Shown one piece after another: positions 11,704 through 25,938 of a DNA stretch of 64,000 nucleotides (positions are counted from its first letter, which is position 1; every line of letters begins with the position of its first letter). The stretch is from Enterococcus mundtii. Lineage in GTDB: Bacteria; Bacillota; Bacilli; Lactobacillales; Enterococcaceae. The translations under genes were made by a program, and so were the position numbers. The stretch is taken from the NCBI RefSeq assembly GCF_003957375.1, contig NZ_CP025473.1, positions 1,637,501-1,701,500 on the forward strand, given 5' to 3'. The notes beneath the pieces are model-generated. The model saw only the letters and a list, made by a program, of their open reading frames with translations, ran no database searches and was not told the origin of the DNA.

Positions 11704-13122
11704 TCACTTACTTCTTCTCTCTTGAATAAATGAAACAATAGGATTTGTTCTCATTACTACTGTAAAGATAAAATACAGGGTAATAGCAATCAAACCTTGG
11801 ACGATATTAGTGATTAAACTTGCTTGCATAGAATTAGTCAATATTCTGGTAATCATCATCATTGCAAGTGCTGAAATAAAATAAATACTTATTCGCCGAA
11901 AATTAAAAGAAAAGTTAGTAGATTTGAGAAACGAACGCACTCTTACTGCAGTAACAAAGAATTCAGCCAATAAATTAGAAATGACAACTCCAAAAAAACC
12001 AACAGTTGGTAGTAAGATTAGATTACTGATAATGTTTATACCTGCACCAATAATCACAGATTTATTATATTCTCTAACTTTACCTATAGGAATAAGGTAC
12101 TGTCTTGAAACAGCCATACCTAGCGGAATAATTACTATTAAAGGAGTAAAAAACGGGATAACATTATTAATAAATAAGAACTTTTCCCCAAAAAACCATG
12201 GAACAAGCTTATCATATACAGTTAACATCCCAAACATAATCGGTAAACTAAAAAACAACTGTAAATCAATCGTTTTATCCATCAGCTCTACAATTCGCTC
12301 AACATTTTTTTTAGCAAACAAACCACTCATATGTGGAAGTAAAACAATATCAAGTGTAGTGATGATTGTTATAAAGACTGTATTTAATGTGAGTGAGTTT
12401 GTATAAAATCCAACTGCTGAAGCCCCTATGAATAATCCTAATAAGGTCTTATTTAAATTCGTATATAAGGTAATCGCTACTTGGGGTATAAAGAATTCAA
12501 AAGAGCCTTTGATGTGACTAAAACTTTTTTTTAGATTTATTTTTTGAAATGTTATATAAGGTTTGATAAAGAACCAAACTAACACTTGTGAAACAAATAT
12601 ACCAGCTGTTTGGATCAAAATATAGATACCTACATCATTTGAATCTTTAATAAAAAGCAGTATCAACACAAAAGTAATTATTTGAACGAATAAACTTGAT
12701 ACACTAGTTAACTTAAAATCTTCAATTCCCATAAAGAACCATGATATATCAAAAAGCACTGCTAAAATGGTTAAACTTTGAAAATAAAAATAATTACTGT
12801 TAGGTAAGAAACTGACAACAGCAATGTAGATAAAAAATACTGCTAATGTCAATATCGCTTTAAATACAACAATTTCCCAAAATAATTTAGAAATGTCCTC
12901 TTGTCGATTATACGCAAGTGCGATTTCTCTGTTCCCATACATAGCCACACCTACGCTAGCAACTAGTACAAAATATTGTGCAATTGAATTGGTATAGTTG
13001 AAGATCCCTATTCCAGCAGGACCTAACGCCATAGAAACTATAGGTATGGTTATAATTGGAATAACTATTTTCATTATCTGGAAGATGGATTGATAAATGA
13101 AATTACGAGCTATGTTTTTCAC
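11704..13122 (-). CDS. Polysaccharide flippase (Wzx-type, MOP superfamily)
   Basis: A 472-residue integral membrane protein with 12-14 hydrophobic segments and the Polysacc_synt N-terminal pattern (FIYQSIFQIMKIVIPIITIP and GPAGIGIFNYTNSIAQYF). This family moves undecaprenyl-linked oligosaccharide repeat units across the membrane before polymerisation. It is the last gene of the operon, four bases after the ugd stop, and pairs with the EpsG-like polymerase at 15121. Its DNA is noticeably more AT-rich than the arc genes, as is usual for serotype-specific genes. Flippase is safe; substrate is unknown. Confidence 0.9.
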   Translation of the reverse strand: MKNIARNFIYQSIFQIMKIVIPIITIPIVSMALGPAGIGIFNYTNSIAQYFVLVASVGVAMYGNREIALAYNRQEDISKLFWEIVVFKAILTLAVFFIYIAVVSFLPNSNYFYFQSLTILAVLFDISWFFMGIEDFKLTSVSSLFVQIITFVLILLFIKDSNDVGIYILIQTAGIFVSQVLVWFFIKPYITFQKINLKKSFSHIKGSFEFFIPQVAITLYTNLNKTLLGLFIGASAVGFYTNSLTLNTVFITIITTLDIVLLPHMSGLFAKKNVERIVELMDKTIDLQLFFSLPIMFGMLTVYDKLVPWFFGEKFLFINNVIPFFTPLIVIIPLGMAVSRQYLIPIGKVREYNKSVIIGAGINIISNLILLPTVGFFGVVISNLLAEFFVTAVRVRSFLKSTNFSFNFRRISIYFISALAMMMITRILTNSMQASLITNIVQGLIAITLYFIFTVVMRTNPIVSFIQERRSK

Positions 13123-15120: not shown

Positions 15121-16191
15121 CTATACTCCTATATAAAAAGGAAAAAAACCAGAAAATCTTAATACCACATAGAACAAAATAAAGTATACAATCGAAAAAA
15201 TGTATAAAATAAAAATTGCTATATATCTATTGTCCTTTGAAAATGCCAGTATACCAACTTGAGGGATTAAAAAAATTTGAACTATATCAAAAAAGATAGC
15301 GATTCTTTTAATGAATGGAGATATGAAACCGCTTAGTCCTAGTATGACTCCTAGTATTATTAAGGAAAAATAAAACAAATAAATTTTATTTAATTTTTTT
15401 ATTATATTTAAATTTAATAAGAAAAATAATAGCAAGAAAAAATTAAAGTAAAACAAATTATTATTTGCATTTAAAGTGGACAAAGCGTATTGTTCATAAC
15501 GATCATTATTTAAAATATGGCTGATTCCTAAAAAAATCGATTGGTAATTAATCATGCTAATTAGAGTTATGCCAGCAATAAGTAACACTACTTTCCATCT
15601 GATATTTTTATCTTTATTTATTACAAAATAAATTGGAAGTATTACTATACTACTAATATGAAACTGACAAGCTAAAATAGTTAGCATAAAGAATTTCAGA
15701 AAATCCCTTTTCATTACATATTTATATGAAAAAACAATAATAGCTACAGCTAAACTTTGACGCATAGTGTTTAAACTAATCGGAAAATATAAACAAAGAT
15801 ATAGAAAAAAAGTTATACCTACTAAATCTCTGCGAGATACTTTTATAATAGTATGACTAATAAATAATGTAGTGAATAAACCATATAACAATATATATAT
15901 ATTAAATGAATTAAAAAAGTTAGCTATATATATAAATATAGAATCTCCAATTTCAAAATAACCACGAGTATATAATATTTCTGAAAAACTATAACCCTCC
16001 ATCGAATGAAATATGGATCTATAAACATTTATATCAGTACCACTATTTCTAAATGATGACAAAGTAATTGGTATAGAGATTGAAAATAGAAAAAAAACTA
16101 GCTTTGTATATTTTTGTTGATATACAGCTATTTGAAGCAAAAAGGCAGATAAAGTGAACAAGCTTATTAGTATTATAAAATTTATCTCCAC
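15121..16191 (-). CDS. EpsG-family O-antigen/EPS polymerase (Wzy-like)
   Basis: A 356-residue membrane protein with about ten hydrophobic segments. The family cue is the periplasmic-loop segment SFRNSGTDINVYRSIF near residue 45-60, typical of EpsG/Wzy-type polymerases (FR...GTD..Y). This class joins flipped repeat units into polymer at the outer face of the membrane. It is the most AT-rich gene in the window by eye, with long A/T runs, typical of polymerase genes that differ between serotypes. ATG at 16191 follows GGAGAAGG. Function by family; linkage specificity unknown. Confidence 0.85.
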   Translation of the reverse strand: MEINFIILISLFTLSAFLLQIAVYQQKYTKLVFFLFSISIPITLSSFRNSGTDINVYRSIFHSMEGYSFSEILYTRGYFEIGDSIFIYIANFFNSFNIYILLYGLFTTLFISHTIIKVSRRDLVGITFFLYLCLYFPISLNTMRQSLAVAIIVFSYKYVMKRDFLKFFMLTILACQFHISSIVILPIYFVINKDKNIRWKVVLLIAGITLISMINYQSIFLGISHILNNDRYEQYALSTLNANNNLFYFNFFLLLFFLLNLNIIKKLNKIYLFYFSLIILGVILGLSGFISPFIKRIAIFFDIVQIFLIPQVGILAFSKDNRYIAIFILYIFSIVYFILFYVVLRFSGFFPFYIGV

Positions 16192-16248: not shown

Positions 16249-17352
16249 TTATGTTACTCTGTTATATATATGTTTCATTTGATTTAACACTCTCGTAATA
16301 GAATAATTTGCAACTTTATCAAGACTCTTCTCTCTGTACTCCTCGATCAACATCTTTTTTTCAAAAAAAACATATAGCTTTCCCTTTAGTTCATTTAATT
16401 CAAAGTAATGGAACAACTCACCATTAATTTTATTTTCTATTAAATCTCGATTTCCTCGGATATCAGAAGCCACAACTGGTACTCCATTAGCCATTGCTTC
16501 CATAACTGAAACAGGAAGCCCTTCTCTTTTTGAAGGAAATACAAATAAATCGCTAATTTTCATTATTTCAATAACGTCATTCCTATATCCTAGTAACTCA
16601 ATTTTTTTTGATAGACCAGCTTCGTTTATTTGACGGATCAAATCATTTTTTAGCGGGCCAATTCCGCAAATCAAATATTTGAAATTTTCATTTTTGAAAT
16701 CTCTCAATGCCTCAATTACAATTTTATGATTTTTATTATCATTAAGTTCTCCTACAGATAAAATAACTTTCGCTTCTCCATCAATCCCCAATTCTTCTCT
16801 TTTTTTCACTCGATCAATAGGTTTATTACATGCTTCAAGAGGTAACCCTACACCATTTACTAAATAGACGTTCTTAGCAAAAAAATGATCTGATGCACGT
16901 TGAAAATCCTCTTGATTTATAGTAATCAGCGTATCTGTATATCTAGACAAATATTTTTCAATTGGATAGTAAAAAAGCCAGTTTATTGTACTTGCACCTT
17001 TATAAAAATGAAAGCCATGAGCAGTATAAAATACTTTAGTTTTCAATTTTTTGCATGCTAATCGAGTAATCATAGATGCTATAGGTGTATGGGTGTGAAC
17101 GATGTCAAAATCTTTTTCATTAACAATACTCTTAAGACTTTGGTATGCAGATAAATTATATTTTGAAAATGGACTTCTACTAAACGGGATTTGATAAACT
17201 TCAATATCATAATCTTGAAAAAAAGGCTTTAGAGGTTGCTCGATTGAACAAGCAACGCTTACTTCATGCCCTTCATTAATTAACATTTCAATATGTGGGA
17301 TAAGAAATGCATTTAAAGTATTGGATATTGTCGTTACATATAAGATTTTCAG
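16249..17352 (-). CDS. Glycosyltransferase family 4 (EpsD/EpsF-like), possible CTG start
   Basis: A GT-B retaining glycosyltransferase: KVILSVGELNDNKNH and the EX7E-type FPSKREGLPVSVMEAMANG are plain. The first ATG (17284-17286) would begin MLINEGHEV and remove the first beta strand. The same frame continues upstream as LKILYVTTISNTLNAFLI PHIE, which is the normal N-terminus of this family, to a CTG at 17350-17352; the next codons upstream give TAC AAA then a TGA stop, and no ATG, GTG or TTG is available. I therefore place the start at the CTG, overlapping the upstream stop by 4 bases, with AAGGG about 11 bases before it (367 aa). Start codon is inference; enzyme family is firm. Confidence 0.85.
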   Translation of the reverse strand: MKILYVTTISNTLNAFLIPHIEMLINEGHEVSVACSIEQPLKPFFQDYDIEVYQIPFSRSPFSKYNLSAYQSLKSIVNEKDFDIVHTHTPIASMITRLACKKLKTKVFYTAHGFHFYKGASTINWLFYYPIEKYLSRYTDTLITINQEDFQRASDHFFAKNVYLVNGVGLPLEACNKPIDRVKKREELGIDGEAKVILSVGELNDNKNHKIVIEALRDFKNENFKYLICGIGPLKNDLIRQINEAGLSKKIELLGYRNDVIEIMKISDLFVFPSKREGLPVSVMEAMANGVPVVASDIRGNRDLIENKINGELFHYFELNELKGKLYVFFEKKMLIEEYREKSLDKVANYSITRVLNQMKHIYNRVT

Positions 17353-17975
17353 TTTGTATCATTCCCTTCAAACTTCTCTATCGTTACGCTAGAATTTGAG
17401 CTAATACCTTCGTGTCTAATAACTTTATTGATTGTTAAAAAAAAGATTATAATATCATGCATAAATGTACAGTTTTCTACATAGTAGCAATCATGCTCAA
17501 ACTTCTCTGCCCAACTAATCGCATTCCTACCCTTGACTTGGGCTAATCCCGTTAATCCTGGGCGGACGCTATGACGTTTCCGTTGTTCCTCATTATATAA
17601 TGGTAAATATTCAACTAATAATGGTCTTGGACCCACAAACGACATATCTCCTTTTAAGATATTCCAAAGTTCAGGGAGTTCATCCAAACTAGTTGCTCGT
17701 AGTAATTGTCCAAATTTCGTTAACCGAACATTATCAGGTAAGTCATTTCCATTTGCATCTTTTGCATCCCTCATTGTACGAAATTTATACATGGAAAAAA
17801 TGACTTCATCTTTTCCAGGTCGATCTTGCTTAAATATGATTGGAGAACCCAATTTAATTTTTACTAAAAGCGCTACGATTAAAAGAACAGGTGAGAAGAC
17901 GACAAGAGCAAGAGCTGAGAAACATATATCTAATGCTCTTTTTCCCCATTTCTGATATACGTTTTTATTATTCAT
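17349..17975 (-). CDS. Undecaprenyl-phosphate sugar phosphotransferase (PglC/EpsL-like)
   Basis: A 208-residue monotopic phosphoglycosyl transferase that starts the repeat unit by moving a sugar-1-phosphate from UDP-sugar to undecaprenyl phosphate. One N-terminal re-entrant hydrophobic helix (about 13-38), then KFRTMRDAKD, SLDELPELWNIL (catalytic Asp-Glu), GDMSFVGPRPLL and RPGLTGLAQVKGR. The short PglC-like form, together with the three upstream bacillosamine-pathway genes, suggests the sugar is N,N'-diacetylbacillosamine or a close relative. It overlaps its neighbours on both sides (8 bases with the aminotransferase), so translation is coupled. Confidence 0.9.
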   Translation of the reverse strand: MNNKNVYQKWGKRALDICFSALALVVFSPVLLIVALLVKIKLGSPIIFKQDRPGKDEVIFSMYKFRTMRDAKDANGNDLPDNVRLTKFGQLLRATSLDELPELWNILKGDMSFVGPRPLLVEYLPLYNEEQRKRHSVRPGLTGLAQVKGRNAISWAEKFEHDCYYVENCTFMHDIIIFFLTINKVIRHEGISSNSSVTIEKFEGNDTN

Positions 17976-19089
17976 GTTGCAACACTCGCTTGATTGTTTT
18001 CACGACTCGAGACAAATCTTCATCTGTCATTTTCGTATCTGATGGCAAACACACACCAGTATTAAATAATGTTTCAGCAACGTTATTTCCAACATAATCA
18101 TATTCTGCAAAAATTGGTTGTAGATGCATTGGTTTCCAGACAGGACGTGCTTCGATATTTGCTTTATCCAATTCATCCATAAGCTTATTCGTATCCACAT
18201 CTGAAAGCAAAATTACACTTAGCCAAAAATTCGGTTGATTCCATTCATTTTCAGGCATGAAGGAAATGGAAGGAATGTCAGATAGTTCACGTTTATAGTA
18301 ATTAAAAATATATCGTTTCTTGTTGATTCGGTCTGACAAGACTTTTAGCTGTCCTCTGCCAATCCCTGCTACAATATTGCTCATACGATAATTATAGCCT
18401 ATTTCATTATGTTGATAATGACGTGCTTGTTCCCGAGATTGTGTTGACCAAAATCGAATTTTTTCAATTCGTTCTGGATTATTTGAAACAGCCATTCCTC
18501 CACCAGATGTAGTGATTATTTTATTTCCATTAAAAGAATAGATACCATATTCCCCAAATGTGCCAGTATATTGACCTTTATATGTTGTACCTAGTGACTC
18601 TGCTGCATCTTCGATCAATGTCACTTGATATTCTTTACATATCTTGATGATTTCATCTAAATTTGCAGATAAACCGTACAAATGAACGACAACGACTGCT
18701 TTTGCTTCAGGATATTTCGCTAACGCGAGTCTAAGTTGTTCAGGGTCCATATTCCAAGTTTCATTATCACTATCTACAAATACTGGTTTTGCACCTTGAT
18801 AGATGATGGGGTTTACAGTAGCTGAAAATGTTAATGATTGACAAATCACAATATCATCTTTCCCTACACCAGCTGCTTTTAATGCTAGATGGATGGCGGC
18901 TGTGCCTGAAGTCAATGCAGCCGCATGGTCAATTCCAACATACTCAGCCAATTCTTTTTCAAAGTTATTCACATTCGCACCAAGCGGAGCAACCCAGTTG
19001 GTGTCGAATGCTTCTTTTACATATTCCTGTTCATATCCTTCATCACTCATATGAGGTGATGCTAATAGAATCCGTTCATTTTTCATCAT
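17968..19089 (-). CDS. DegT/DnrJ/EryC1 aminotransferase (PglE/EpsN-like)
   Basis: A PLP-dependent sugar aminotransferase of 373 residues. Seen: LTSGTAAIHLALKAAGV (PLP phosphate site, about 58-74), LIEDAAESLGTTYKG (Asp that holds the pyridine ring), and SFNGNKIITTSGGG (Schiff-base lysine, near 184). In the UDP-bacillosamine pathway this enzyme converts the 4-keto-6-deoxy sugar made by the dehydratase into a 4-amino sugar. It overlaps the acetyltransferase gene by 14 bases upstream and the phosphoglycosyl transferase by 8 downstream. Family is firm; exact product is inferred from the neighbours. Confidence 0.92.
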   Translation of the reverse strand: MMKNERILLASPHMSDEGYEQEYVKEAFDTNWVAPLGANVNNFEKELAEYVGIDHAAALTSGTAAIHLALKAAGVGKDDIVICQSLTFSATVNPIIYQGAKPVFVDSDNETWNMDPEQLRLALAKYPEAKAVVVVHLYGLSANLDEIIKICKEYQVTLIEDAAESLGTTYKGQYTGTFGEYGIYSFNGNKIITTSGGGMAVSNNPERIEKIRFWSTQSREQARHYQHNEIGYNYRMSNIVAGIGRGQLKVLSDRINKKRYIFNYYKRELSDIPSISFMPENEWNQPNFWLSVILLSDVDTNKLMDELDKANIEARPVWKPMHLQPIFAEYDYVGNNVAETLFNTGVCLPSDTKMTDEDLSRVVKTIKRVLQHE

Positions 19090-19717
19090 AGTCCCAACTT
19101 TCTATTATTTTTGCAGGTACCCCCACACTTTTTGTGTTGTTTTGAATATCTTTAACAATCACACTTCCTGCGCCTATAATATTCCCCTGGCCAATTGATA
19201 CCTCTGGTATCACTTTTGTTCCGACACCAATTTCATTTCGATTCCCCATTACTGTGTAACCAGACAGATTTACATTTGGATAGATTGAGTTATAGTTTCC
19301 TATCTTTGAATCATGCCCGATGGTTGAATGGATATTGAACATATTGAAATCACCTATTGTTATATCGGCTGTATAAGTTGTGTAAGGCATCAAAATATTC
19401 CCTACGCCTATTCGCACATTCAACCCTACTATAGCAGTAGCATCAATCAGATTTGGGAATGTCAAATGATTATTAGCTTTCAATTCCAAAAAAATTTTTT
19501 CCCTCATACGCGGAGAAGCAATTCCTATGAATACAGCAGTCTTTAGTTTCATTTTTTTTAATATGTCTATTTTCCCTAGTACTGGTATGCCAACAATCTT
19601 CTCATCTTTCATCTTCGCATCATCAACAAATCCAACTAAGTCATATACGGATTGTCTACTTAATAAAAAGGCGAGTTCTTTACCGAATCCTCCTGCACCA
19701 ATAATTATTGCTCTCAT
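19076..19717 (-). CDS. Sugar O/N-acetyltransferase (PglD/EpsM/NeuD-like)
   Basis: 213 residues: an N-terminal Rossmann-like UDP-sugar-binding part (IIGAGGFGKELAFLL) and a C-terminal left-handed beta helix of hexapeptide repeats (IGVGNILMPYTT onward). The segment FNIHSTIGHDSKIGNY holds the histidines expected for the catalytic base. In PglD the enzyme acetylates the 4-amino group, completing UDP-diacetylbacillosamine. It sits between the dehydratase and aminotransferase genes, exactly as the pathway would need. Confidence 0.9.
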   Translation of the reverse strand: MRAIIIGAGGFGKELAFLLSRQSVYDLVGFVDDAKMKDEKIVGIPVLGKIDILKKMKLKTAVFIGIASPRMREKIFLELKANNHLTFPNLIDATAIVGLNVRIGVGNILMPYTTYTADITIGDFNMFNIHSTIGHDSKIGNYNSIYPNVNLSGYTVMGNRNEIGVGTKVIPEVSIGQGNIIGAGSVIVKDIQNNTKSVGVPAKIIESWDYDEK

Positions 19718-19729
19718 GATACTCCCCCA

Positions 19730-21547
19730 CTATTTACTCGAAGCCTTTGCAAATGCTACGACTTCTTTTGCTAGTTGTTTGTCATCCTCGGATAAACCTG
19801 TTACGAATTCCATGACTTCTTGGATCGGGTACCCTTTGATATTCCCAACAAAAATCTTTTCATACACCTGTTCATCATTTCGTTCTTTGTCCAACAACAG
19901 TTCTTCATACAATTTTTCGCCCGGTCGGATGCCTGTTTCGACGATTTCGATTTCTTCTTCGGTGTAACCACTCAAGCGGATCATGTTTCGTGCAAGATCT
20001 AAAATTTTGACTGGTTCACTCATATCTAAGACAAAGATTTCGCCACCTTTGGCTAATGCACCCGATTGGATGACTAAACGGCTTGCTTCTGGGATCGTCA
20101 TAAAGTAACGAGTCATCCGAAAATCGGTGATCGTGATGGGTCCGCCTTTTGCGATCTGTTCTCGAAAAACAGGGATTACGCTTCCGCGAGAGCCCAACAC
20201 ATTCCCAAATCTTACGGCCGAAAACTTGGTATTGTTTTCTTCATTTAAGCCTGTGACGATCATTTCTGCGATTCGCTTCGTGGCTCCCATCACATTTGGT
20301 GGGTTATTGGCTTTATCGGTGGACACCATGACAAAGTTCTTGACATTGGCTTCTTTGGCAGCTTCTGCTACATTTTTTGTTCCTTTGATATTGTTTTTTA
20401 CTGCTTCTCTTGGGTTATATTCCATCAAGGGCACATGTTTATGTGCTGCTGCATGATAGACGATATCTGGCTGATGTTCTTTCATGATGTGGAAGATCTT
20501 TTCACGGTCTTGGATATCTGCAATAATTGGAATGATTTCTGTTTTATTATAAGAGGGATCTCCTGATAGTTCGCGATGAATCAAATAGATCGAGTTTTCA
20601 CCATGTCCTAATAAGAGTAATTTTTTTGGCGAAAAAGCAAGTACTTGACGACAAATCTCTGAACCAATAGAGCCTCCAGCTCCGGTAACAAGTATGACTT
20701 TTTCTGAGATGTGTGATTTTAGTTTGTCTAGATCTAATTTGACTTCTTCTCGTCCTAACAAGTCGACCACGTCGATTTCTTTCAGGCGAGAAACATTGAT
20801 TTTCCCTGATGCGATTTCTTCAATCGAAGGCATGGTATTCATCTTGACTTCTTTTGATTCGATAAGATGGAAAATTTCACGAATTCTTTTTCGTGGCAAA
20901 GAAGGTATCGCGATCGTTACCATATCGATCGACAATTCGTCGATCAATCTTGGTAAGTCCTTGGTATTCCCTACGACTTTTATCCCAGACAAATATGTTT
21001 TATATTTGTTCGGATCATCATCCACAAAGCCAATCACTTCCAAATCGTTGATTGCTTTTGAACTAAGAATACTATTACATAGAATACGTCCGCCTTCGCC
21101 AGCTCCGATGATCAGTGTTCTGTGTTTGTTTAGTGGCGATTCTTGACGCTGTGTTTTATGTTCGATATATATACGCCAGAATAAACGACTGCTGATGATA
21201 AGAAACATGGATAAGATGTAAGTTAATACTTGTAATCTAAGACTGATTTTTCGCATAAACAAATATTGGATGATAAATGATGAAATAACGGTACAAGTAA
21301 TGGCTGAAAAAATGGCTGCCATCTCATTTAAATTGGTATATCGATTGATTCGTGTGAATGTTTTGAACAACATACCATATCCAATGTAAAACATGAGTGA
21401 TACGCCTAAATTAACGGCTAAATAATCTTGATCGATACCAACAAATGGTGTCATAAAATAATAGCTTGATAAAATAGAGACGCCTAATAATAAACTATCA
21501 ACCAAAACTAAAATGATTACTTTTCTTTTTCTAGTAAGTTCAAACAA
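19730..21547 (-). CDS. UDP-GlcNAc 4,6-dehydratase, membrane-bound (CapD/EpsC/PglF-like)
   Basis: 605 residues: four N-terminal membrane helices (about 8-120), a CoA-binding-like first Rossmann domain (LIIGAGEGGRILCNSIL), and the catalytic short-chain dehydrogenase domain with GAGGSIGSEICRQ (around 293) and STDKANNPPNVMGATKR, where Ser-x-Asp-Lys and the Met replacing the usual Tyr mark this 4,6-dehydratase class. It removes water from UDP-GlcNAc to a 4-keto-6-deoxy sugar, the first step toward bacillosamine. The start codon is TTG at 21545-21547, after AGGGGG with 8-base spacing; no in-frame ATG gives the first helix. Confidence 0.93.
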   Translation of the reverse strand: MFELTRKRKVIILVLVDSLLLGVSILSSYYFMTPFVGIDQDYLAVNLGVSLMFYIGYGMLFKTFTRINRYTNLNEMAAIFSAITCTVISSFIIQYLFMRKISLRLQVLTYILSMFLIISSRLFWRIYIEHKTQRQESPLNKHRTLIIGAGEGGRILCNSILSSKAINDLEVIGFVDDDPNKYKTYLSGIKVVGNTKDLPRLIDELSIDMVTIAIPSLPRKRIREIFHLIESKEVKMNTMPSIEEIASGKINVSRLKEIDVVDLLGREEVKLDLDKLKSHISEKVILVTGAGGSIGSEICRQVLAFSPKKLLLLGHGENSIYLIHRELSGDPSYNKTEIIPIIADIQDREKIFHIMKEHQPDIVYHAAAHKHVPLMEYNPREAVKNNIKGTKNVAEAAKEANVKNFVMVSTDKANNPPNVMGATKRIAEMIVTGLNEENNTKFSAVRFGNVLGSRGSVIPVFREQIAKGGPITITDFRMTRYFMTIPEASRLVIQSGALAKGGEIFVLDMSEPVKILDLARNMIRLSGYTEEEIEIVETGIRPGEKLYEELLLDKERNDEQVYEKIFVGNIKGYPIQEVMEFVTGLSEDDKQLAKEVVAFAKASSK

Positions 21548-21568: not shown

Positions 21569-22309
21569 TTATACAATAGGTCGAAAATCCTTTGCGTGCA
21601 CTTGCTCCCCATTGATGATGTCTCTTGTTACTTGATCCATTTCTTCGATAACGGTCGATCCAAATTTTTTCTCTACGATACTATATGCTTTTTCCATATA
21701 AAAATCCCGATCTTTTCGACTATGGGCATCTGAGGCGATCATCTGGACAAGCCGATGTTGAACCAGTTCTTCACTTAACTTCTTGATCTGTTTGCCATAC
21801 ACACCTGCAATACTTGGTGCAGTCAACTGCGCCAAACAGCCCATATTCAAGTAGGGTAATAATAGATTAGGACTTTCTTGGAACCCGCGGTTCCGCTCAG
21901 GATGGACAATGATTGGTACGATCCCCATCTGACGTAATTCATAAAACAAACTTTCTGTGTATTCGGGAATGCTGTTTGTTGGTAGCTCAGCTAACAAATA
22001 GCGATCGGTGACATCTGCAAAAAGAATCTTGTCACTTTTAATTTCATCGATCAAATTACTTTTTATTCGAACTTCTTGTCCTTCAAATAAAGTTAGGGGG
22101 ATGGACTGTCGATCGAGTTCTTTTTGCAAGTCTTCGACAGCTAGTAATACATCTGCTTTTTCATTCGTGAAACGTTGATTGTGATGAGGAGTGCATAAAA
22201 TGTGGGTGATTCCTTGTCGAACAGCTTCTTCTGCCATGGCAATCGATTCTTTGACCGTTTTTGGTCCGTCATCTATACCTGGTAAAATATGACAATGTAA
22301 ATCAATCAA
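21569..22309 (-). CDS. CpsB/CapC-type tyrosine-protein phosphatase
   Basis: A manganese-dependent PHP-family phosphatase (246 residues) that removes phosphate from the CpsD-type tyrosine kinase and so tunes polymer length and output. Metal ligands are visible in DLHCHILPGIDDG (3-15), CTPHHNQ (39-45), VHPERN (near 138) and ASDAHSRKDR (near 193). It follows the kinase gene by 17 bases. Equivalent to CpsB of streptococci and EpsC-type phosphatases; family is firm. Confidence 0.93.
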   Translation of the reverse strand: MIDLHCHILPGIDDGPKTVKESIAMAEEAVRQGITHILCTPHHNQRFTNEKADVLLAVEDLQKELDRQSIPLTLFEGQEVRIKSNLIDEIKSDKILFADVTDRYLLAELPTNSIPEYTESLFYELRQMGIVPIIVHPERNRGFQESPNLLLPYLNMGCLAQLTAPSIAGVYGKQIKKLSEELVQHRLVQMIASDAHSRKDRDFYMEKAYSIVEKKFGSTVIEEMDQVTRDIINGEQVHAKDFRPIV

Positions 22310-22326: not shown

Positions 22327-23004
22327 TCAATAGTAATAATAATTAAAATCTGCATTCTTCTTCGCACCGTTGTAAACAACACCTAAAATCGTTGCTTGTG
22401 CAATGGCTAGCAGTTCTTTTGCTTTGACTAATTCTTGTTTCATTGTTTTACGTTCTCGGACGACTAAAAGTGTCCCATCTGTTTTTGCGGCTAAGATCTG
22501 AGCATCAGTGACTGTTGCAATGGGTGGTAAATCAAAAATGACCAGATCGAATGATGCTTTTAGTTGTTCGATCACTTCTTCCATTCGTTTCGAATCAAGT
22601 AGTTCGGATGGATTAGGTGGCTTCGGTCCACTTGTCATGATCCAAAGATTTTCGACGGAACTGGTATGATAATATGATTCCGGTCTTCCTTCACGATCGC
22701 CTAAGAAATTACTTAATCCATTGACATTTGGCAATTGAAAAGTCAATGCTACACTTGGTTTTCTCAAATCAGCATCAACCAGCAAAACTCTTTTGCCACT
22801 ATTTGCGAATACGACAGCTAAGTTAGCAGCAGTTGTTGATTTTCCTTCACCTGGTCCAGATGAAGTCACGACCATCGTCTTCAATTCACGATCGACAGAA
22901 GCAAATTGGATATTTGAACGAATTGCCCGATATTGTTCGGAAACCATGGCATTTTTATCGGTAATGCTGAGGAGTGAAACAGGTAAAATAGTGTTCTTCT
23001 TCAT
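22327..23004 (-). CDS. CpsD-type bacterial tyrosine kinase
   Basis: 225 residues. Walker A SSGPGEGKSTTAANLA (around 49-64), Walker A' VLLVDADLRKP (74-84) and Walker B LVIFDLPPIA are typical of BY-kinases. The C-terminus ends in a tyrosine cluster (ADFNYYYY), the autophosphorylation sites. It needs the membrane protein CpsC, encoded just upstream, as activator, and is dephosphorylated by the CpsB-type enzyme downstream. Together they regulate chain length and polymerisation at the membrane. Confidence 0.94.
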   Translation of the reverse strand: MKKNTILPVSLLSITDKNAMVSEQYRAIRSNIQFASVDRELKTMVVTSSGPGEGKSTTAANLAVVFANSGKRVLLVDADLRKPSVALTFQLPNVNGLSNFLGDREGRPESYYHTSSVENLWIMTSGPKPPNPSELLDSKRMEEVIEQLKASFDLVIFDLPPIATVTDAQILAAKTDGTLLVVRERKTMKQELVKAKELLAIAQATILGVVYNGAKKNADFNYYYY

Positions 23005-23016
23005 AAATACTTCTCC

Positions 23017-23793
23017 TTATACACGTTTTCGTGAACGACGGCTTTCTCTCTGCTCAGTCGTTTCAATCGTTTCGACTTCTGCTGGTTGAAACATACGGCC
23101 GTTTTCTAGTTCTTTCTTCGTCATTTCATTGACGTCTCCAAGAATCGGCAATCCTAATTCTTCTGTGACAAAACGTTCATCTTTGACTGTTTTATCTAAC
23201 AATTCTAGAAGAAAGGCTAATCCGACTCCAATCATCAAGCCAAGCAACCCACCGATAACTACGTTCAACATGTTATTTGGTGAAACAGGTGTAGGATTGC
23301 TTTGTGCTGCAGAAGTGATCGTCACTTTATTGACATTCAATACGTCCGTTGCTTTCGATTGGAATACTTGTGCTGTGACGTTGGCGATATCTGTCGCATG
23401 ATCTGGGTTATCGACAGTTGCAACGATTTGGAACATTTGTGAGTTTTGTGATTGATTGACACTGATTGCCGATTTCAACTCACCCTTTGTAAGACTTTGT
23501 CCATAATTTTGTTCAAGTTCTCGTTGAACATCATTGATGACAACATCACCTAATATCATATCTTTGTAGGTATTGATCAGCATAACATTCGCGTTGACAT
23601 CTTGTAGATTCGTATTCGTATTCTCTGCTTTTGACTGAACGATCATCTCAGCTGATGAACTGTATTTTGGTGTGATCAAAAAGAACGTAACTCCAGCAGC
23701 TAAAGCAAATCCGGCTAGCGTGGTCGCAAGAATCAGCAACCAACGCTTTCTTAAAATCTCAAATAATTCTCCTAGACTAATCGTTTCTTCCAT
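23017..23793 (-). CDS. CpsC/Wzz-type chain-length regulator and kinase activator
   Basis: 258 residues with the Wzz topology: helix 1 at about 17-40 (RWLLILATTLAGFALAAGV), an extracellular domain (about 41-175) and helix 2 (MLNVVIGGLLGLMIGVGLAF, about 178-198). The C-terminal cytoplasmic tail (LLELLDKTVKDERFVTEELGL) docks the CpsD-type kinase. It precedes cpsD by 12 bases. The tail is longer than usual, ending in a Glu-rich then Arg-rich stretch (ETTEQRESRRSRKRV). Confidence 0.92.
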   Translation of the reverse strand: MEETISLGELFEILRKRWLLILATTLAGFALAAGVTFFLITPKYSSSAEMIVQSKAENTNTNLQDVNANVMLINTYKDMILGDVVINDVQRELEQNYGQSLTKGELKSAISVNQSQNSQMFQIVATVDNPDHATDIANVTAQVFQSKATDVLNVNKVTITSAAQSNPTPVSPNNMLNVVIGGLLGLMIGVGLAFLLELLDKTVKDERFVTEELGLPILGDVNEMTKKELENGRMFQPAEVETIETTEQRESRRSRKRV

Positions 23794-23813: not shown

Positions 23814-24668
23814 TTAATATCTTTTCTTAACTTTTCGTCTTCTTAATAGTTCGCTCAACATCCAGATGATGAAACTACAAATAATGAGCACGATTCCCCA
23901 TTGGATAAATGTTACAATAAAATTGCTTAGATACGTAGTTAAAAAATGATAGAGCGACTTTGAATTGATGCCGATACGCTCGACCATTTTTGAAAGGTAC
24001 ACAAAAAGAGGTAACGCTAAAAGCATTAGACCAGCGCCACCCACTGCATAACTTAAATAGCGTAATGCACGATGGAAAAAACGTGTGTCGATTGCAATGA
24101 TCGCAATCACTAATAATGCAGAAACTGTCATTGTAAAGAAAATCAATAAGGTCAGTGTTCTTTTGTACCCCATCACTTGCTTCCCATAAGTCAAAAGATA
24201 AGGGATCTCAATATATTCAGTATAGGTTTCGATGGCAGATTTTTTTAGATTATCAATCGATTGTTGTGTTTCTGCATTGATTTCATAATTATTTTCTTTC
24301 GCATAGTCTTCGATTTTTTTCTGGATGATTTTGTCTACATCCTCTGTCCGTTCAATCAAAAAAGGAATGTCTGTATAAATGGTGCGAATATAGTGTTCAA
24401 CATTCGATCGTACATAAGCTTGAGGAACAGTGTCTGCCAAAACATCTGCAGGAATATTGCTTCCTCGACCTAGATCGCTGATTCTTTGATTGATCTCAGA
24501 GGTGATCGTTTCTGAATAATTGGCTTCTTCCATGGCTTTTTCCATAAACTGTTGGTTGAACAACGTTAGTCTTAATACGACTAACGTCATGCCGGCAAAC
24601 AAACTCACAGAACAAATAAATGTAAGTAGCCAACGGGACCCTTTTTGCATGAATTTTTGCGTACTCAT
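23814..24668 (-). CDS. Unknown four-helix membrane protein in the sortase/polysaccharide operon
   Basis: I do not recognise this family. 284 residues with one membrane helix near the N-terminus (about 14-34), a polar, mostly helical domain predicted outside the cell (about 36-170), then three helices (about 178-198, 205-225, 252-275) and a basic tail (LLRRRKVKKRY). AGGAGGAAATC precedes the ATG at 24668. It lies 9 bases after the sortase gene and 20 before cpsC, so it is co-transcribed with both. By position it might help assemble the sortase-anchored protein or link it to glycan export; this is inference only. Confidence 0.8.
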   Translation of the reverse strand: MSTQKFMQKGSRWLLTFICSVSLFAGMTLVVLRLTLFNQQFMEKAMEEANYSETITSEINQRISDLGRGSNIPADVLADTVPQAYVRSNVEHYIRTIYTDIPFLIERTEDVDKIIQKKIEDYAKENNYEINAETQQSIDNLKKSAIETYTEYIEIPYLLTYGKQVMGYKRTLTLLIFFTMTVSALLVIAIIAIDTRFFHRALRYLSYAVGGAGLMLLALPLFVYLSKMVERIGINSKSLYHFLTTYLSNFIVTFIQWGIVLIICSFIIWMLSELLRRRKVKKRY

Positions 24669-24677
24669 GATTTCCTC

Positions 24678-25364
24678 CTATTTATTAGGATTGATCAACG
24701 GACCTTCAACTAACTCACAGATAACAAAAAGTCGTTCATCCGTCATGCCTAAACTATCAACAGGATAGCATGTATAAAGAAGCAGTATTGGTTTATCTTT
24801 TTGACTGATCAATTCATTGATTTCCGGATCATCTTTATGACGAATCACCATTTCTTTTACTTGATAGCGGTAATTCGCATAGGTCGTCTTAGCTGTCACG
24901 ATATCATTTGTTTGAATACCGCTTAGCTTACCAAACCCATCAACATTGTGCCCACCGACAAGTGACGTTCCAGTCTCACCTATGTAGACAGAACCCATAT
25001 ATTGTCCGGCACCTTTTCTTAATATCTCATCGGTATCTCCAAAATACAAAGGCACATTCAGATCTAAAGAATCCACCATGATGTCACCATAGCGTTCGCC
25101 ACCTCTAGGGTAAGCGATACTGCTAGATGCCAGTTCATTGTTCTCATCTTTAGCGACATCTTCTTCTTTTACAGCTTCAAAGCTTTGTTCTTGTGTTTCG
25201 AATGTTGGGACATCTGAAAGTAAAAACAAATTTAAAGAAGAAGTGGCAAAATGAATGACAGGTCTTCCTATGACGTACATTAGAGAATAACCAGCTGCCA
25301 AAAAAAAGACAGGGACAAAAAGCATTGCCCCTAGTCTCTTAAGCAGCTTGCGCTTTTTACGCAA
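24678..25364 (-). CDS. Sortase, class D-like
   Basis: A 228-residue membrane-anchored transpeptidase: N-terminal basic stretch plus one membrane helix (about 14-34), then the sortase beta barrel. Catalytic residues are clear: His in SLVGGHNVDGFG (near 138), Cys in LLYTCYPVDSLG (near 200) and Arg in MTDERLFVICEL (near 212). The TCYP...G...R spacing and the GAGQYMGSV stretch resemble class D sortases. It overlaps by 8 bases the gene for a protein with a C-terminal sorting signal, so the pair are probably enzyme and substrate. Class assignment is by eye. Confidence 0.88.
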   Translation of the reverse strand: MRKKRKLLKRLGAMLFVPVFFLAAGYSLMYVIGRPVIHFATSSLNLFLLSDVPTFETQEQSFEAVKEEDVAKDENNELASSSIAYPRGGERYGDIMVDSLDLNVPLYFGDTDEILRKGAGQYMGSVYIGETGTSLVGGHNVDGFGKLSGIQTNDIVTAKTTYANYRYQVKEMVIRHKDDPEINELISQKDKPILLLYTCYPVDSLGMTDERLFVICELVEGPLINPNK

Positions 25365-25938
25365 CCTTTGTCTTTCTTCCTACTACAACCGCACCTGCTG
25401 CGACTAATAGTAATGAAGCAATTGCCATTGCACTAGCGGTATAATTACCACCTGTTTGTTTAATTGGAGAACTAGTGCTAAAAGCTGGTGAAGTTGTTCC
25501 ATCAGCATTTTTTGCACCGATTTGGATATCGCTACCATTCCAACTTAGTACAACTAATCCCAACGCGTCAGCAACTCTCGTTACCTCTTGTTGGATTTGC
25601 ATGATGATATCCCGCGGTAAAGCACGAATCAAATCATCAAGCGTGTTGATTCCTGTCATATCGATTGTTACTGAACCTAACAGATTACGCACATTTTGAA
25701 TACCTGTAACGGCAGTTTCTACTTGTGCATCCGTTAAATCATTTTGTTTCAAATGGTTTTCGGCTTGTGTAATGTAAGTATCAGGGACAGTGAATTCTTT
25801 TCCTTGAATACTTACTGGTGCTTTTAACAAGTCTAGGATCTGTTGCTCATTCGCAGAAATCGCGCCAGCGGCATCTACAGGAACAGTGAACAATAATGCA
25901 GTGAAAAATACAACTAAATATCCGACAAACTTTTTCAT
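25357..25938 (-). CDS. Secreted protein with a non-standard sortase signal (IKQTG)
   Basis: 193 residues: signal peptide (about 1-24, MKKFVGYLVVFFTALLFTVPVDA), a mainly helical body (25-130), a short spacer, and a C-terminal sorting signal made of SPIKQTGG (157-164), a hydrophobic helix and a positive tail (GRKTKVA). The usual LPXTG is replaced by IKQTG, suggesting a dedicated sortase, and the sortase gene overlaps it by 8 bases. First gene of the polysaccharide operon; AGGAGGTCG precedes the ATG at 25938. Function unknown; it could be a surface protein that carries or organises the glycan, which is speculation. Confidence 0.85.
   Translation of the reverse strand: MKKFVGYLVVFFTALLFTVPVDAAGAISANEQQILDLLKAPVSIQGKEFTVPDTYITQAENHLKQNDLTDAQVETAVTGIQNVRNLLGSVTIDMTGINTLDDLIRALPRDIIMQIQQEVTRVADALGLVVLSWNGSDIQIGAKNADGTTSPAFSTSSPIKQTGGNYTASAMAIASLLLVAAGAVVVGRKTKVA

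Follow-up and report, generated by a model that had tools for sequence, protein, structure and literature searches.

What does a sortase do at the head of a polysaccharide operon? The attachment of Gram-positive capsules to the wall is usually ascribed to LCP ligases. In the window, the whole stretch of 64,000 nucleotides from Enterococcus mundtii that was analysed (contig NZ_CP025473.1, positions 1,637,501 to 1,701,500), no LCP gene was found; four LCP matches lie elsewhere in the genome. The polysaccharide operon of the window opens with genes for a small secreted protein (hereafter surf), a class D-like sortase and a membrane protein (hereafter mem). No description of this gene set was found in the literature searched.

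The locus in the window

The genes run on the minus strand in the order surf, sortase, mem, cpsC, cpsD and cpsB. A preliminary description had covered positions 23814..25938, which span the trio only; the cps genes were named in its text and lie outside that range. The following features were recognized.

25357..25938, minus strand: surf, secreted protein of 193 aa with a helical domain, then IKQTG, a hydrophobic helix and a basic tail; no Pfam family
24678..25364, minus strand: class D-like sortase of 228 aa with a TTG start (PF04203, E 6e-18), overlapping surf by 8 bp
23814..24668, minus strand: mem, 284 aa, with one helix, a helical ectodomain and three helices; no Pfam family above cut-off
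23017..23793, minus strand: cpsC/wzd chain-length protein (PF02706 above cut-off; TIGR01006 the best NCBIfam match)
22327..23004, minus strand: cpsD/wze tyrosine autokinase (TIGR01007, 213.8 bits, cut-off 108)
21569..22309, minus strand: cpsB/wzh phosphatase (PF19567)
19730..21547, minus strand: nucleotide-sugar dehydratase, CapD/PglF-like (PF02719)
19076..19717, minus strand: PglD/NeuD-type sugar acetyltransferase (TIGR03570, 193.8 bits, cut-off 160.8)
17968..19089, minus strand: DegT-type sugar aminotransferase (PF01041)
17349..17975, minus strand: initiating sugar-phosphate transferase (PF02397)
15121..16191, minus strand: EpsG-family protein, likely the polymerase Wzy (PF14897)
11704..13122, minus strand: flippase Wzx (PF01943)

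This layout bore out what had been described for the trio, namely a surface protein with a signal-peptide-like start, IKQTG, a hydrophobic stretch and a basic tail, a sortase gene overlapping it by 8 bases, and cpsC-cpsD-cpsB directly after the trio, across a gap of 20 bp between mem and cpsC. Glycosyltransferases and a UDP-sugar dehydrogenase are also encoded downstream of cpsB. The components of a Wzx/Wzy capsule system, namely CpsC, CpsD, CpsB, an initiating transferase, a flippase and a polymerase, were all found, the polymerase being assigned by EpsG family only, and by its gene content the locus is a Wzx/Wzy-type polysaccharide operon. The dehydratase, the PglD/NeuD-type acetyltransferase, the DegT aminotransferase and the sugar-phosphate transferase (17349-21547) presumably form a di-amino (bacillosamine-like) start-sugar pathway. 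A minus-strand terminator-like hairpin followed by a T-run lies at 25310-25333, near the 5' end of the sortase coding sequence; such sites numbered five against 2.2 (SD 1.6) expected, a weak signal.

The catalytic residues His139, Cys199 and Arg211 of the sortase are invariant across 22 aligned homologues, and its best PDB match by sequence was 2ln7. Class D models scored best for it, although below the curated thresholds (82.3 bits against 165 and 86.5 against 140), and two further trio sortases likewise fell below the class D cut-offs; the label "class D-like" given earlier is therefore fair. The trio sortase resembles YhcS of Bacillus subtilis and SrtC of B. anthracis in its best-scoring class and in the catalytic residues kept, and differs from class D sortases in these subthreshold scores and in the motif beside it, which lacks the proline of class D substrate motifs (LPDTS, LPDTA and LPNTA in the available text of PMC12445088). 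No substrate of the LPxTA/LPxTS type was met beside trio sortases, the neighbouring motif being mostly hKxTG, where h is V, I, L or M. The genome of the window contains four sortase matches. At one locus (L103/L285), the sortase is split across two reading frames.

The AlphaFold model of mem reached a mean pLDDT of 93.1 and consisted of one long helix, a run of shorter helices and then three long helices, in agreement with the earlier four-helix reading. Comparison of mem with the PDB by sequence gave no convincing match, and the best fold match was Lit (7b0p). Lit, a lipoprotein intramolecular transacylase, uses His85 and His153 according to the accessible part of PMC8275575. The only histidine conserved at 90% in 44 mem sequences is H199, which sits between long helices 2 and 3, on the inside if the N-terminus is inside. 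A role of mem as a Lit enzyme was rejected because mem lacks the conserved histidine pair. Distant mem paralogues stand alone, apart from the trio, in the stretches read. One of them is in the genome of the window (G000:C1:317250-318035; L114:7224-8066), with 25% identity and with neither sortase nor surf, and in the relatives L117 and L120 the solo paralogue is near a gene with a start that appears Cas9-like by eye.

The sorting signal of surf

Judged by eye, surf has the layout of an LPXTG-type protein, with a signal peptide, a C-terminal hydrophobic helix and a basic tail; the LPXTG motif itself is absent, and the window protein has IKQTG. The fold model of surf had a mean pLDDT of 69.4, with residues 154-193 below 50. 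We counted motifs, taken as the five letters before the C-terminal helix, in 105 non-identical surf proteins with a sortase and mem nearby, leaving out identical proteins, an additional surf-like frame at L336 and surf genes with no sortase or mem close by (for example L364). The motif was placed by eye in ten proteins (L229, L281, L288, L290, L298, L299 and L352; also L297, L351 and L357), and the count of lysine at position 2 thereby rose from 87 by script to 90. The remaining residues at this position were N (4), A (3), T (2) and Q, R, H and V (1 each), and proline was found in none of the 103 readable proteins. The other two, L240 and L243, are unreadable, since reading ends before the TG. 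In these two related genomes of another family, surf ends at VK (L240:6615-7049 and L243:8234-8656), where the sister L239 continues to TG.

In nearly all surf proteins the motif begins with V, I, L or M, and it closes with TG, except for TD in L281 and TN in L298 and L299, giving a consensus that is mostly hKxTG. The motif lies about 30 residues ahead of the helix in L288 and L290, and two weak surf matches, L347 and L349 (E 5e-4 and 6e-3), have GTQTG and GVQTG. Immediately upstream of an ordinary trio, L336:5115-6656 encodes a protein of 513 aa whose start resembles surf (E 2e-6).

As judged from these sequences, surf with an adjacent sortase carries a proline-free motif. A proline-free motif is known from the LAXTG of class E sortases. 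Lysine at position 2 was not met in the parts of the sortase-motif literature that were searched. A DNA pattern for [IVM]K[QNKH]TG fits 28 sites in the genome of the window; on inspection by eye, a membrane helix and a basic end follow the motif in surf alone. That surf alone of these sites has the tail context supports the earlier proposal of a dedicated sortase handling a non-standard motif encoded next door, and we infer that surf may be the substrate of the adjacent sortase.

Distribution, cps linkage and natural fusions

Among 105 Enterococcaceae genomes, mem was found in 48 and surf in 47, the 48th (G027) having a stand-alone mem only. Surf and mem flank a sortase gene in the stretches read, and the trio was also found in Lactococcus, other Lactobacillales and Lachnospiraceae. 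The arrangement is not due to chance, because the tail motif and the gene order recur in many genomes; by this comparison, surf, sortase and mem are one conserved unit. Two complete trios lie in tandem in one genome (L224:5461-9888). A divergent trio beside a recombinase-like gene, perhaps in a mobile element, was seen at L116:5698-8811; that genome also has an ordinary trio, L093. The trio was rejected as a pilus unit: it has one small substrate, and no second substrate gene was noticed in the loci inspected gene by gene except L119, which lacks surf and continues with two LPxTG-type genes and another sortase.

Linkage to cps genes was scored as cpsB, cpsC or cpsD within 6 kb on the same strand. 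Linked loci made up 28 of the 52 Enterococcaceae loci with a trio or a sortase-mem pair (51 read plus the window), 35 of the 58 mem loci from a scan of named genomes and 24 of the 36 Lachnospiraceae stretches. These sets are not additive, since the named-genome set overlaps the Enterococcaceae loci, the E. villorum locus (L102, L262) and many Enterococcus loci are in two sets, and three Lachnospiraceae stretches (L288-L290) are also in the named set. The 36 stretches were read from 51 Lachnospiraceae genomes with a match. cpsB/C/D were not found beside the trio in the other 24 Enterococcaceae loci, 21 of which come from a single genus group (E. moraviensis, E. caccae, E. ureilyticus and kin, with a cpsC match elsewhere in their genomes), or in 12 Lachnospiraceae stretches, some of which stop at contig ends. 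Nor were they found beside any of the 15 copies that were examined in three further Lactobacillales families; of the 20 stretches read there, 14 contained a sortase (15 copies) and six (L233-L238) contained mem alone. Some stretches were short on one side (525 bp after mem in L225; 2.2 kb in L239). The preliminary description had counted it against its own reading if the surface protein or the sortase proved to lie mostly away from polysaccharide genes, and on this point the outcome was mixed, with linkage in 28/52 and 24/36 and its absence in 24/52 loci and 15/15 copies. A cpsC match was present in all 47 trio genomes and in 46 of the 58 others (Fisher p 5e-4, kinship ignored).

In most Lactobacillales cases, mem is separated from the next cps gene by -41 to 35 bp. 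The trio lies before cpsC in most linked Enterococcus loci and in Lactococcus hodotermopsidis (L265), between cpsD and cpsB in E. villorum (L102, identical to L262) and in L106, after cpsB in Lactococcus chungangensis (L276) and in L280 and L282, before cpsB in Lachnospiraceae L288, L289, L296 and L297, and after cpsD in L360 and L361. A rough tree of 119 mem sequences, in which 15 end branches are long and 31 of the 116 inner branches have weak support, requires a minimum of 12 changes of the linkage label, indicating that the linkage is not one inherited neighbourhood. The link to polysaccharide genes described earlier thus recurs in distant lineages and differing gene orders, and such repeated linkage speaks for a shared function over one inherited neighbourhood.

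In nine genomes of the Lachnospiraceae set, a single frame encodes a surf domain (E 5e-11 to 7e-18), a linker, a membrane helix and a mem domain, with cpsB/C/D alongside. No sortase was found near these fusions in stretches of 6-17 kb, which are parts of the genomes, and a hydrophobic-x-x-TG motif within 30 residues before the helix was absent from eight of the nine. The fusion L353 has APSTG 29 residues ahead of the helix, which its sister L358 lacks, and L356 differs very little from L359. A surf-sortase fusion with a separate mem is encoded at L343; in L364, surf and mem are separate, and neither a sortase nor a motif was found. Motif and sortase appear to be jointly retained or lost as a tendency. 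From the fusions, together with L343 and L364, we therefore conclude that surf and mem act together, in support of the role of assembly partner suggested earlier for mem.

The operon head and the role of the trio

We compared the trio loci with 40 trio-less cpsC loci of Enterococcaceae, a selection from a longer list. Half of these (20/40) have an LCP gene upstream, in 19 cases within 150 bp of cpsC; ten start with a protein that has a single N-terminal helix, grouped by eye, and ten have neither, contig ends included. No LCP gene lies within 150 bp of cpsC in any of 26 trio loci, in part because the trio lies in between, and four of the 26 (L080, L082, L084 and L086) have an LCP gene upstream of surf. 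Strict replacement of LCP by the trio was dropped, since these four loci carry both. In Enterococcaceae, the position of the trio in the cps operon is filled by an LCP ligase gene in half of the trio-less loci read. In the 36 Lachnospiraceae stretches, no LCP gene was seen with four enterococcal queries. The available text of PMC4076982 states that the E. mundtii eps locus lacks an LCP protein and names no trio. The Wzy-dependent loci of E. cecorum and E. faecium, as given in the accessible part of PMC4393107, share the core order cpsC-cpsD-cpsB with the window and are headed by LCP (wzg), whereas the window locus is headed by the trio. At L158:3313-4197, L172:4592-5431 and eight loci similar by eye, cps operons that lack both LCP and trio begin with a gene for another protein that has a single N-terminal helix, and relatives of the L158 protein were found on ten Enterococcus plasmids (nine of E. 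faecalis, one of E. hirae).

The preliminary description knew of no system with this exact gene order; none was found in the literature, but a functional precedent exists in srtB4 of Mediterraneibacter gnavus. According to the part of PMC13121745 (2026) that was available, deletion of srtB4 abolishes capsule display and was complemented, the gene lies in a CPS cluster with an LCP protein, a tyrosine phosphatase and a BY-kinase, and LCP and phosphatase mutants are also without capsule display. That text gives no sortase mechanism, says that candidate targets lie near sortase genes, and places most M. gnavus sortase B homologues, including RGna_12035 (from its number, probably srtB4), in a clade apart from known sortase B. 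The SrtB4 system and the trio both have a sortase inside a CPS cluster. Unlike the trio sortase, SrtB4 is called a sortase B, its cluster includes LCP, and the same text describes no partner or membrane protein. From locus-tag numbers alone, one might guess at a gene order like that of L360/L361 with LCP in the place of surf, and SrtB4 may be unrelated to the trio sortase. GspA of Actinomyces oris, in the available part of PMC6381275, is a wall-anchored protein glycosylated by the LCP enzyme LcpA; wall anchoring is likewise predicted for surf, but the GspA glycan comes from an LCP enzyme and the window locus has none.

Our preferred reading, held tentatively and at slightly less than even confidence, is that the trio is a conserved envelope module serving Wzx/Wzy-type polysaccharide assembly, with surf and mem acting in assembly or attachment and the sortase moving surf to the wall. 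We infer a probable surf-mem membrane complex, a hand-over by the sortase and a part in retaining the polymer or in its construction. With its C-terminal helix in the membrane, the surf precursor would sit with mem beside the CpsC/polymerase complex and would there bind or receive the outgoing polymer. The private sortase would then cut between T and G and transfer surf to peptidoglycan, and surf at the wall would retain or organise the capsule. In the surf-mem fusions this transfer to the wall would be absent, and surf would work from the membrane. The earlier proposal of a glycan linked to, or guided by, a sortase-anchored protein is supported in part by the dedicated sortase and the recurrent polysaccharide link, whereas the sortase-less fusions speak against the sortase itself joining glycan and wall.

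In an alternative that we consider unlikely, the polysaccharide would be covalently attached to surf and the sortase would anchor the glycoprotein to peptidoglycan as a protein-based substitute for LCP. The lack of an LCP gene in the window locus and at the head of trio loci is consistent with this, as are the amino-sugar genes and initiating transferase of the window operon, the GspA precedent (PMC6381275, in part) and the need for SrtB4 in M. gnavus capsule display; yet Pfam and NCBIfam recognized no ligase in the trio, the nine fusions lie beside cps genes without a sortase in the stretch, four trio loci keep LCP, and in M. gnavus the sortase and LCP share one cluster and are both needed (PMC13121745, in part). 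The adjacency of the trio to cpsC or cpsB, its nearest cps neighbours, would also fit a regulatory platform in which surf and mem sense wall or polymer and tune the CpsBCD kinase system or chain length, the sortase serving as an off-switch that removes surf from the membrane. The fusions hold surf at the membrane, and none of the trio, sortase-mem and fused forms read lacks mem (in loci found via mem or the sortase), but Pfam and NCBIfam gave no known sensor or kinase-binding domain and many trio loci have no adjacent cps genes, and we regard such a platform as quite improbable. Least credible to us is a free-standing surface-protein module unrelated to glycans, whose frequent presence in cps operons would reflect the variability of these loci, as the unlinked copies of the E. 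moraviensis group and of the three other families and the tandem pair in L224 might suggest, since the repeated linkage on the mem tree, the overlapping or closely spaced genes and the positions inside the cps core argue against it.

Returning to the envelope module, its sortase, with a likely substrate that lacks the usual proline, is relevant to enzyme specificity and to protein ligation tools, and the natural fusions tell which parts of the trio belong together. The trio might also account for the need for a sortase in capsule display by M. gnavus. It could represent a further way, besides LCP, of holding a capsule, in which surf and mem capture or carry the polymer at the membrane, a sortase with a proline-free signal hands it to the wall, and lineages without the sortase do with one membrane protein; we think this specific form rather unlikely. 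Found together repeatedly in the cps operons of both Bacilli and Clostridia, the sortase, surf and mem would offer a testable second answer to the question of capsule retention.
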